Made by a program: the position numbers and the translations under genes. Below, piece after piece: positions 13,001 through 20,651 of a stretch of DNA of 64,000 nt (position 1 is its first letter; each line of letters starts with the position of its first letter). The stretch is from Acuticoccus sediminis (GTDB lineage: Bacteria; Pseudomonadota; Alphaproteobacteria; Rhizobiales; Amorphaceae). The notes beneath the pieces are model-generated. The model searched no databases, had not been told where the DNA came from, and worked only from the letters and a program-made list of their open reading frames with translations. The stretch lies in the NCBI RefSeq assembly GCF_003258595.1, contig NZ_QHHQ01000004.1:62001-126000 (forward strand). Reading direction: 5' to 3'.

Positions 13001-15745
13001 ATGAGCAAGTCCGCCGTGGGGTCGGCTCCCGAATCCGCCGCGCTTCGACGCCCGCGACCCAGACGCGGCGGTGCCGGCTCCGGCCCGCCCGCCCAGCCAT
13101 CGGAGATGCGGTTGGTCACGGTCTTCAGGTCGCTCTCGCTGACCCGGCAACTCCTCATCGCCATGGTCACGCTGGTTCTGCTGACGTCGGCGTCCGTCGG
13201 CGTGGTCGTGTACTGGGCGGTCGAGCGGGCGCTGATCCCGCAGGGTGTGCTGCGCCTCGAGGGCGACGCCCGCCAGCTCGCGACCCAGCTCGTCAGCAGG
13301 ACGACGGGGTATCGGTCCGACCTCGCCGCAAGGACGAAGTCGGGGGCCATCGCCGGCTTCATCGACGCGTCGACGGGCAGCGGCACCGACGCCCGCCTCG
13401 ATCTCGACGCCGCCACCTGGCGGCGCATCGTCGAAAACCTCTTCTTCGCCGAGCTCGCGGCGAAGTCGGAGTACCTGCAGCTCCGCCTGCTCGACGCGGA
13501 GGGCAACGAGGTCATCCGCGTCGACCGGCAGAAGGGCGACGAGCCGCCGCGCATCGTCCCCGTCGCCGAACTGCAGGCCAAGCAGTCCCGCCCCTACGTC
13601 GCCAACACGCTGGCGCTCGACCCGGGCGAGATCTACATCTCGCCGCTCGACCTCAACCGCGAGCACGGCGAGATCGTCATGCCGTTCACGCCGGTCCTGC
13701 GCTTCGCCGCGCCGATGGACGGCCCGGACGGGCAGCGGTACGGCCTCCTCGTCCTCAACGTGGACATGCGCCAGGACTTCCGGATCCTGCGCGACGCGGT
13801 GCTGCCGGGGAGCGACCTCTTCCTCGTCAACGCCGAGGGGGACTACCTGCTCCACCCTGATCCGGCGAAGGAGTTCGCCTTCGACCGCGGCCCGCGCGTC
13901 CTTTTTCCGGAAGACCGGCCGGCCCTGTCGGCCGCCGTCGGGGCCGTGGCGGCCGGAAGCGACCTCGTTTCGGCCGACGGCGAGGCGACGCGGGCGGTCG
14001 CGTGGGCGCAGGCGCCGCTCGCGCAGGTGGGTCCGCCGCTCACGGTCGTCCTCTCGGCACCGAGCCGCATCGCCCGCGCGGCCCCCGCGATCCGCAACTC
14101 CGCCGCCGGCGTGGGAGCGATCGCCGCCCTCCTCGCCGCCATCGCCGTCGGCCTCGCCGGCCGGGCGATCATGCGGCCCATCGTGGCGATGACCCACGGG
14201 CTGGAGGACGCCAGCGCCGGCCGCCCGGTCGCGCTGCCGGTCACCCGCGGCGGCGAGATCGGCGTCCTCGCCCGCGCCCTCAACGACTACATCGAACGCG
14301 AGCGCTTCGACGGGGCGATCGTCAACGGCTCCAGCGACGCGATCCTGACGACCGACCATGACGGGCTGATCACCCGCTGGAACCCCGCGGCGGCCCACCT
14401 CTTCGAGTGCCCCGCCGAGAGCGCGATCGGCCGGGACGTCGACGCCGTGATCGCCCCGGACGGGGCCTTCACCGTGCGCACGTGGCTCAACGACACGATG
14501 GGCGAAAGCGAGGGCGGCGTCGCCGACATCACCCGGCTGCGGCGCGACGGGACGACGTGCGACATCGCCCTGCGCGCCTCCCCGGTGCACGCCCCGGACG
14601 GCACCATCATGGGCATGTCGATCATCGCGCGCGACATGACGGCGGAACGGATCGCCCAGGAGATGTTCCGCGTCTCGGTCGAGTATTCGCCCGCCGGCAA
14701 GGTCCTGTGCGGACCGGACGGCCGCATCAAGCTCGTCAACGCCCAGACCGAAGCCGCGTTCGGCTACACCAGGGACGAGCTGATCGACCAGCCGGTGGAG
14801 CTCCTCGTGCCGCAGGATGTGCGCGGCGAGCACGCGTCGCTGATGCGGGCCTTCCTCGCGAGCCCGGAACGCCGGTCGATGGGCAACGACCGCGAGGTGT
14901 TCGGCCGCCGCAAGTCAGGCGAGATCTTTCCCATCGAGGTCGGCCTCACGCCGGTGCCCTCGCGCTCCGGCACGCTCGTCCTCGCGGCGATCGTGGACGT
15001 CTCCGCCCAGCGCGCCGCGCAGCGCGACCTCATCGCCCGCACCCAGGAGCTTGAGCGCTCCAACAAGGACCTGATGCAGTTCGCCTACGTCGCCTCGCAC
15101 GACCTGCAGGAGCCGCTGCGCATGGTGGCGAGCTTCACCCAGCTCCTCGCCGACCGCTACAAGGGCCAGCTCGACGAACGGGCGGACAAGTACATCCACT
15201 TCGCCGTCGACGGCGCCAAGCGGATGCAGGCGCTGATCAACGACCTGCTCGACTACTCGCGCGTCGGCGCGTCCACCAAGCCGCTGGAGCCGGTGGAGGT
15301 CGCGACGGTCTGGCAGCGCGTGCAACGCATGCTGCTGAGCACGATCCGCGAGACGGAGGCGACCGTCGAGGCCGGCCCCCTTCCCACCGTGATGGCCGAC
15401 GCCGAGCAGCTGACGCGCCTCCTGCAGAACCTCCTCAGCAACTCGATCAAGTTCCGTAGCGATGTCCCGCCGCACATCACCCTCGCCGCGGAACGGCAGG
15501 GTGAGTTCTGGCAGTTCACGTTGAGCGACAACGGCATCGGCTTCGAAAGCCGCGACGCGGCCCGGATCTTCGACATGTTCCAGCGCCTGCACGAGCGCGG
15601 CAAGTACGAGGGGACCGGCCTCGGCCTCGCCATCGCCAAGCGCATCATCGACCAGCACGGCGGCCGCATCTGGGCCGAGAGCGCGCCGGGCGAAGGCACA
15701 CGGTTTTCATTTACGCTGCGCGCAGCCGAGCCCGCGAGATCATGA
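13001..15745 (+). CDS. Membrane sensor histidine kinase: periplasmic sensor, HAMP, two PAS domains
   Basis: A 914-residue sensor kinase. A basic N terminus leads to TM1 (about residues 48-70), a large periplasmic dCache-like sensor, TM2 (about 366-390), HAMP, PAS1 (about 437-547), PAS2 (about 553-670), HisKA with His700 in YVASHDLQEPLR, and a HATPase with NLLSNSIKF, DNGIGF and GTGLGLAI. This HisKA type usually pairs with CheY/Rcp1-like regulators, and one follows immediately with a 4-base ATGA overlap. The start at 13001 has GGAG nine bases upstream; ATG 13106 is an alternative. It is first gene of the kai-type operon and likely feeds environmental input to it. Confidence 0.9.
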   Translation: MSKSAVGSAPESAALRRPRPRRGGAGSGPPAQPSEMRLVTVFRSLSLTRQLLIAMVTLVLLTSASVGVVVYWAVERALIPQGVLRLEGDARQLATQLVSRTTGYRSDLAARTKSGAIAGFIDASTGSGTDARLDLDAATWRRIVENLFFAELAAKSEYLQLRLLDAEGNEVIRVDRQKGDEPPRIVPVAELQAKQSRPYVANTLALDPGEIYISPLDLNREHGEIVMPFTPVLRFAAPMDGPDGQRYGLLVLNVDMRQDFRILRDAVLPGSDLFLVNAEGDYLLHPDPAKEFAFDRGPRVLFPEDRPALSAAVGAVAAGSDLVSADGEATRAVAWAQAPLAQVGPPLTVVLSAPSRIARAAPAIRNSAAGVGAIAALLAAIAVGLAGRAIMRPIVAMTHGLEDASAGRPVALPVTRGGEIGVLARALNDYIERERFDGAIVNGSSDAILTTDHDGLITRWNPAAAHLFECPAESAIGRDVDAVIAPDGAFTVRTWLNDTMGESEGGVADITRLRRDGTTCDIALRASPVHAPDGTIMGMSIIARDMTAERIAQEMFRVSVEYSPAGKVLCGPDGRIKLVNAQTEAAFGYTRDELIDQPVELLVPQDVRGEHASLMRAFLASPERRSMGNDREVFGRRKSGEIFPIEVGLTPVPSRSGTLVLAAIVDVSAQRAAQRDLIARTQELERSNKDLMQFAYVASHDLQEPLRMVASFTQLLADRYKGQLDERADKYIHFAVDGAKRMQALINDLLDYSRVGASTKPLEPVEVATVWQRVQRMLLSTIRETEATVEAGPLPTVMADAEQLTRLLQNLLSNSIKFRSDVPPHITLAAERQGEFWQFTLSDNGIGFESRDAARIFDMFQRLHERGKYEGTGLGLAIAKRIIDQHGGRIWAESAPGEGTRFSFTLRAAEPARS

Positions 15746-20651: not shown

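Follow-up and report, generated by a model that had tools for sequence, protein, structure and literature searches.

A conserved KaiA3-KaiB-KaiC gene cluster with its own two-component genes in Acuticoccus sediminis

The DNA analyzed here, called the window, is a 64,000-nucleotide stretch of the Acuticoccus sediminis genome (contig NZ_QHHQ01000004.1, positions 62,001 to 126,000 of the forward strand). Positions 13001-20651 of the window contain six + strand genes that make up a genuine and conserved KaiA3-KaiB-KaiC module, accompanied by two-component genes of its own, as indicated by gene content, homology, conservation and residue states. The first gene, recognized from domain matches and orthologs, encodes a membrane sensor histidine kinase (HK1; 13001..15745, +), and is followed by a single-domain response regulator of 148 aa (RR; 15742..16188, +), recognized from a receiver match and from the residues read. 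Next come a predicted KaiA3-type protein of 269 aa (16188..16997, +), in which a receiver precedes a C-terminal KaiA-type four-helix domain (about residues 161-265), KaiB (16997..17290, +; PF07689) and KaiC, of 507 aa (17294..18817, +; PF06745 and circ_KaiC). The last gene encodes a hybrid histidine kinase (18834..20651, +) with the architecture receiver-PAS-HisKA-HATPase-receiver. The six open reading frames (ORFs) are all open, and each start overlaps the preceding stop or falls at most 16 bases from it. An initial annotation of this DNA had proposed six co-directional genes of this content, order and spacing in an alphaproteobacterial host; the open frames, the junctions and the domain matches bear this out, as does the identity of the host.

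The HK1 stop (15743-15745) overlaps the RR start (ATG at 15742) by four bases (ATGA), while one-base overlaps join RR to KaiA3 (stop 16186-16188, GTG at 16188) and KaiA3 to KaiB (stop 16995-16997, GTG at 16997). Gaps of 3 and 16 bases separate the KaiB stop from the KaiC start and the KaiC stop from the start of the hybrid kinase, respectively. For KaiB, a TTG at 16985 is also in frame with the GTG start, and the Acuticoccus yangtzensis gene has an ATG at the codon matching 16997. The HK1 start is uncertain (13001, or perhaps the ATG at 13106), and similarity to three orthologs starts at residues 26-45. A terminator scan of the six-gene set found no + strand terminator, which is weak evidence, and a sigma-70 scan gave one + strand site, located within the RR gene (shuffled sequences gave a mean of 0.4).

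KaiB matched PF07689 with 99.4 bits (cut-off 27; E 9.7e-29) and fell under the stricter TIGR02654 cut-off (107.6 vs 145.3); chains of cyanobacterial KaiB and of Lpp1115 are among its PDB matches at E <= 0.001. KaiC matched PF06745 (E 4.4e-111) and the NCBIfam circ_KaiC model (648 bits, cut-off 546). It has two RecA-like domains and keeps K41 and K285, the catalytic pairs E66/E67 and E309/E310, and the phosphosites S422/T423, and it ends in an A-loop tail of 29 residues, from G479 to the end. All 29 KaiA-linked KaiCs that were read have Ser-Thr sites and tails of 23-34 residues, whereas 11 of 14 KaiA-less alphaproteobacterial KaiCs have Ser-Ser and tails of 85-95 residues; the other three have Ser-Thr and tails of 96 (an outlier), 5 and 14 residues. 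According to passages of Schmelling et al. (2017, PMC5520375), KaiC2 is Ser-Ser, and KaiC1 and KaiC3 are dominantly Ser-Thr; in passages of Pitsawong et al. (2023, PMC10076222), the class with long tails is said to be independent of KaiA. The window KaiC also scored 372 bits against the Rhodobacter KaiC and about 585 against the Synechococcus KaiC. These features indicate a KaiC of the KaiA-dependent kind (KaiC1/KaiC3), rather than of the KaiC2 or KaiA-less kind.

In a 66-row KaiC tree, the window sequence grouped with the KaiC of a second Acuticoccus cluster (see below) and those of Jiella and Aurantimonas (99/98), with the long-tail class forming a separate group (100/100). The best tree placed this clade outside the cyanobacterial KaiC3 clade. 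The branching order around the window KaiC is unsettled by the approximately unbiased test (p 0.142 for canonical KaiC1, and 0.29 for joining the window and KaiC3 clades, which is not rejected). Since the order of the KaiA3-linked KaiC lineages and KaiC1 is unsettled, no descent of canonical KaiA from KaiA3 is claimed. A 413-residue KaiC piece from Tectomicrobia (L047) is in the trees, not in the residue table, and one sequence with a very long branch (alphaKaiB_209) was left out of the second tree. Among cyanobacterial-phylum genomes, 22 had a match to the KaiA-type profile described below, 17 stretches were fetched and 14 were used as KaiA3 loci; nine of these 14 gave no KaiC in 13 kb and are hence not in the trees. 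One further locus (L220, genome G248), where a kinase gene follows one of the KaiB family and the 13 kb fetched gave no KaiC match, enters no KaiC count.

The initial annotation compared the cluster with the KaiA-less KaiBC of Rhodopseudomonas and Legionella, which belongs to another class, in which the alphaproteobacterial KaiCs are mostly Ser-Ser with tails of 85-95 residues and fall in a separate clade. A KaiA-less KaiBC system like those of Rhodopseudomonas and Rhodobacter, flanked by an unrelated regulator, is an extremely improbable reading of the six genes, given the Ser-Thr sites, the short tail, the KaiC clade, the bit scores and the KaiA-type domain. Such systems are the commoner class in the order: KaiA3 stands beside KaiB in only five of the 20 KaiB-bearing genomes among 249, while the other 15 lack a nearby KaiA-type gene. 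Like the window cluster, they combine KaiB and KaiC, often with nearby kinases.

The receiver of the 269-residue protein was detected by PF00072 (residues 9-107, E 2.6e-11), while its C-terminal part gave no Pfam match over the cut-off and a sub-threshold match to RsbU_N (E 0.053 and 0.11). Canonical KaiA was rejected by Pfam: neither the whole protein nor the C-terminal part matched PF07688, and two of 17 relatives gave sub-threshold matches (best E 0.092). A profile built from 17 C-terminal domains, with no canonical KaiA included, had canonical KaiA as its first eight PDB matches (E 1.1e-4 to 0.012), before an unrelated ninth (E 0.017), and it recovered eight of nine canonical KaiA loci. 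An AlphaFold2 model of the full protein (mean pLDDT 79) shows a receiver, a long helix and a four-helix domain. The C-terminal domain was modeled alone (pLDDT 85) because receiver proteins dominated the full-length fold search (first KaiA at rank 12). In the Foldseek search with this model, KaiA chains took ranks 1-12 and 14 (TMq 0.61-0.68) at weak E values (0.05-0.39); the RsbU structure 1w53 was a weak fold neighbor (rank 44, E 1.7). As in published KaiA3 systems, the gene lies directly upstream of kaiB and kaiC. The profile matches and the fold ranks thus confirm the earlier suspicion of a KaiA equivalent, and the protein is best described as a predicted KaiA3-type KaiA, with a receiver joined to a KaiA-type four-helix domain.

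HK1 contains a PF21623 sensor domain between transmembrane-like stretches (about residues 44-68 and 366-396), a HAMP domain slightly under the cut-off, two PAS domains, HisKA with His700, and HATPase. The single receiver of RR has all of E11, D12, D64, T94 and K116. The hybrid kinase has its HisKA histidine at His252 and two intact receivers, N-terminal (E14, D15, D60, S88, K110) and C-terminal (E492, D493, D538, T566, K588). CckA was considered as an identity for this kinase and rejected (335 bits vs a cut-off of 1000).

The same six genes in the same order were found in four Acuticoccus genomes, the window's included; A. yangtzensis carries the cluster on contig NZ_MJUX01000001.1 (G064). The neighboring genes, an AMP-binding enzyme gene on the 5' side (ending at 12598) and a convergent phosphoglycerate mutase gene on the 3' side (20793-22313), also flank the cluster in two further Acuticoccus genomes (L031, L033), but not in G206 (L035). 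In two Jiella genomes and one Aurantimonas genome all six genes are present, but 0.8-1.4 kb with an antisense ORF separates the regulator from KaiA3. This ORF resembles receiver parts of the hybrid kinase (L040 7739-8278, -; L042 7981-8547, -; L043 8121-8858, -).

Across 398 Pseudomonadota genomes, a KaiC of the window's kind (E 1e-120 or better) was found in at least 23 genomes and at least 27 loci, of which two belong to the window genome; these counts are lower bounds, as at most three candidates were scored per genome. A KaiA3-type gene within 1.5 kb and a KaiC tail were found together at 25 of the 27 loci, with the tail motif NIILG replacing GILSG or GILTG in six of them. The remaining two (L242 and L243) have no KaiA gene, and their KaiC tails are cut. 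Longer flanks were examined in 20 stretches holding 22 of the 27 loci, where kinases and regulators were recognized by BLAST against the genes of the window and the two following counts were read by eye from the listing. The order kinase-regulator-KaiA3-KaiB-KaiC-kinase on one strand is present, in some cases with extra genes, in 12 stretches (L253, L254, L256, L257, L259, L260, L261, L265, L266, L267, L268 and L272), and 18 stretches have a regulator as the next gene upstream of KaiA3 or of a KaiB-KaiA3 pair, the exceptions being L258 (contig start) and L263. The idea that the genes are unconserved as a set therefore fails. Three stretches (L256, L258, L272) hold two KaiA3/KaiB/KaiC sets or parts of them, with one KaiC each in another clade, and several others have a second KaiB-like gene between KaiC and the kinase. 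A wider list comprised at least 80 loci, most of them receiver-only matches.

The receiver of the window KaiA3 is degenerate. The acidic pair position is E13-Q14 and His60 occupies the place of the phospho-acceptor Asp, while T84 and K106 are kept; the loop after position 60 is shorter by four residues. The KaiA3s of the first clusters of G159 and A. yangtzensis are in the same state, while the receiver is intact in the KaiA3s of G206, both Jiella genomes and Aurantimonas, in all three KaiA3s of the second Acuticoccus clusters and in 22 of 22 from the Pseudomonadota stretches. Alignment of 54 KaiA3s showed all five receiver residues in 41 and changes in 13, namely the window protein and its two orthologs, nine of the 14 cyanobacterial proteins and the Tectomicrobia one (L047), whose broken frame means that it cannot be judged. 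Receiver loss is thus common in cyanobacterial KaiA3 and was otherwise seen in this sample only in the three Acuticoccus first clusters. Passages of Kobler et al. (2024, PMC11372060) give the phospho-acceptor Asp as usual in KaiA3 and lost in Pleurocapsa and Microcystis; since the published description itself allows exceptions, the missing Asp does not exclude the window protein from KaiA3. The closest sisters of the degenerate receiver are intact receivers from its own genus, so its loss is independent of that in canonical KaiA.

The degenerate receiver remains under constraint, with omega at 0.30-0.45 among the three genomes. For the KaiA domain, omega was 0.11 and 0.24, with the third pair saturated, and for KaiC it was 0.08-0.13 among the three genomes; both are under purifying selection, and all these values are rough, as synonymous sites are near saturation. 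Passages of a review on pseudo-receivers (PMC12632262) describe quinone binding to canonical KaiA near the beta3-alpha3 loop, which is the loop altered in the window KaiA3.

A second KaiA3-KaiB-KaiC-hybrid kinase cluster was found on another contig of the window genome (L011), without the HK1/regulator pair directly upstream. Identity between the two clusters is 39% for KaiA3 and 64% for KaiC. The second-cluster KaiB (L011 9793-10173, -) is divergent, with 41% identity to the window KaiB and differences most visible near the C-terminal end. G159 and A. yangtzensis have both clusters, and only the first was found in G206. The initial annotation, whose gene content, order, spacing, host and KaiA hunch stood and whose KaiA-less comparison did not, had seen neither this cluster nor the degenerate receiver.

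The second-cluster hybrid kinases have lost the N-terminal receiver: the two tested gave no Pfam match to it, and in all three the Asp, the second acidic, the Thr/Ser and the Lys positions are replaced. The four first-cluster kinases and that of Aurantimonas keep all five receiver residues, and the two Jiella kinases have Ala at the Thr/Ser place. Each of the two clusters has therefore lost the receiver that the other keeps. Two KaiABC modules may have divided their inputs in this way, the window KaiA being blind to phosphorylation and receiving inputs through the regulator and the output kinase, and the other KaiA keeping a phospho-switch, although we consider this tentative and rather unlikely. 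The pattern is one cluster pair in three related genomes, and if each cluster has one loss, chance alone makes the two losses opposite in half of all cases. A tidy receiver rule is also contradicted by a gammaproteobacterial metagenome-assembled genome (MAG; L046) with an intact KaiA3 receiver, a degenerate kinase receiver and no second cluster known. The Tectomicrobia kinase lacks three of the five receiver residues, and in L256 and L272, with two KaiA3 genes each, both KaiA3 receivers are intact.

Taken together, the six genes probably encode a switch or timer based on KaiA3-KaiB-KaiC phosphorylation, with two-component proteins of its own for input and output. How KaiA3 acts on KaiC, what the kinases do and any role in timing are inferred from protein families, gene order and domains. 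KaiC hexamers would autophosphorylate at S422/T423; the four-helix domain of KaiA3 would bind the A-loop tail of KaiC and raise phosphorylation, and KaiB would oppose it. HK1 and the single-domain regulator may work as cognate partners through which a membrane signal enters, and the hybrid kinase could read the Kai state or combine it with that signal. With the phospho-acceptor Asp of its receiver lost, the window KaiA3, in contrast to its second-cluster paralogue, probably does not respond to phosphorylation of its own. Input would then enter through the regulator, through the intact receivers of the hybrid kinase or through a phosphorylation-independent effect on the pseudo-receiver.

The same molecular parts could instead work as a metabolic or stress state switch, which differs in dynamics: KaiC phosphorylation would track ATP/ADP and the HK1 signal in an hourglass-like manner, with KaiB resetting it, the hybrid kinase as a stress output and no self-sustained rhythm. 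We give this an even chance. According to passages of PMC11372060 and PMC10076222, KaiBC works as an hourglass in Rhodobacter, and its homologs in Legionella and Pseudomonas have roles in stress. In addition, no photosynthetic day-night driver is apparent, as a reaction-centre gene (PF00124) was found in none of the five Acuticoccus genomes with KaiA3 and in two of the three without it (a small sample). On the other hand, the window KaiC is outside the long-tail KaiA-independent class and a KaiA-type activator is present. The two genomes with reaction-centre genes (G100 and G245) have neither KaiA3 nor KaiB matches, and one of them is 89% complete.

Several observations weigh against a timer or switch built on KaiA3 and KaiC. 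Two genomes keep kinase-regulator-KaiA3 without KaiB and KaiC: in the Acuticoccus genome G183 (L037 2713-6769, -) KaiB is missing and the one PF06745 match covers 75 of 231 positions, and in the MAG SJ870 (G401; L041 6592-9825, +) neither KaiB nor KaiC was found beside KaiA3. KaiC was not found in five genomes with a KaiA-type domain (G183, G401, G643, G639 and G480), some of which are drafts or MAGs, where a missing gene does not prove absence. The last three belong to the cyanobacterial-phylum sample, and in two of them the domain is on PAS proteins. The KaiA-type domain may therefore have other partners, which weakens a purely clock reading. In addition, no single protein reaches the Pfam KaiA or RsbU_N cut-off, and the match between KaiA loss and tail loss rests on one lineage, as L242, L243 and alphaKaiB_216 group together (100/100). 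Finally, according to passages of Schmelling et al. (2017, PMC5520375), the cyanobacterial KaiC3s tested showed no stimulation by canonical KaiA, so KaiA types are not interchangeable.

As separate observations, L193 5774-7528 (-) and L194 5825-6715 (-) carry a KaiA-type C-terminal domain behind three PAS domains and one PAS domain, respectively, in place of a receiver; both come from the cyanobacterial-phylum sample, and no KaiC was found in their genomes.

The genomes without KaiC, together with the weak fold resemblance to RsbU 1w53, would fit a response regulator with a KaiA/RsbU-type domain directed at some other target, such as the kinases, with the adjacency to KaiB and KaiC being secondary. 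We regard this as distinctly improbable, since KaiA3 lies within 1.5 kb of nearly all the Pseudomonadota KaiC loci, the tail is cut in the two that lack it, and both sequence and fold are nearest to KaiA.

The core of the KaiA3-KaiB-KaiC module has been known since 2024. According to passages of Kobler et al. (2024, PMC11372060), Synechocystis KaiA3 (Sll0485) interacts with KaiC3 and enhances its autophosphorylation, and with KaiB3 it gives damped cycling in vitro; the same source places kaiA3B3C3 in cyanobacteria and five other genera, Rhodospirillum and Bradyrhizobium among them. The Acuticoccus cluster shares with the Synechocystis system the receiver joined to a KaiA-type domain, the kaiA3-kaiB-kaiC order and a KaiC without a long tail, but differs in the kinase/regulator pair and hybrid kinase, the degenerate KaiA3 receiver, the second cluster and the KaiC clade. 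With canonical cyanobacterial KaiABC it shares the A-B-C order, the Ser-Thr phosphosites, the A-loop tail and the KaiA-type C-terminal domain, and both canonical KaiA and the window KaiA3 have a receiver-like N-terminal domain without the phospho-acceptor. However, the window KaiA3 lacks a PF07688 match and, with Thr and Lys retained, has a receiver that more nearly resembles true receivers, and the KaiC belongs to a separate clade. Passages of the Ramlibacter genome paper (PMC3164672) likewise place kinases and single-domain receivers beside kaiC outside cyanobacteria, and those passages do not mention a KaiA-type gene.

No report of the six-gene order, or of receiver loss in a proteobacterial KaiA3, was found in open PMC text, outside which most subscription literature lies. 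Within the literature covered, the new features are a six-gene unit that recurs across Pseudomonadota, a KaiA3 with a pseudo-receiver, a second cluster showing the opposite loss, and the match between KaiA loss and tail loss.

Whether KaiA-driven timers exist outside cyanobacteria is an open question, and a unit conserved in Proteobacteria makes it testable on one small putative operon. That the KaiC tail is cut at loci without KaiA hints at the surface that KaiA3 should bind, and the two copies with opposite receiver losses are a natural experiment on the role of the KaiA receiver. If the two modules did divide their inputs, the cyanobacterial KaiA design would have been re-invented outside Cyanobacteria, in a two-timer system of a bacterium without reaction-centre genes, and the step from a phospho-regulated to a cyanobacterial-style KaiA could be examined side by side in one cell.

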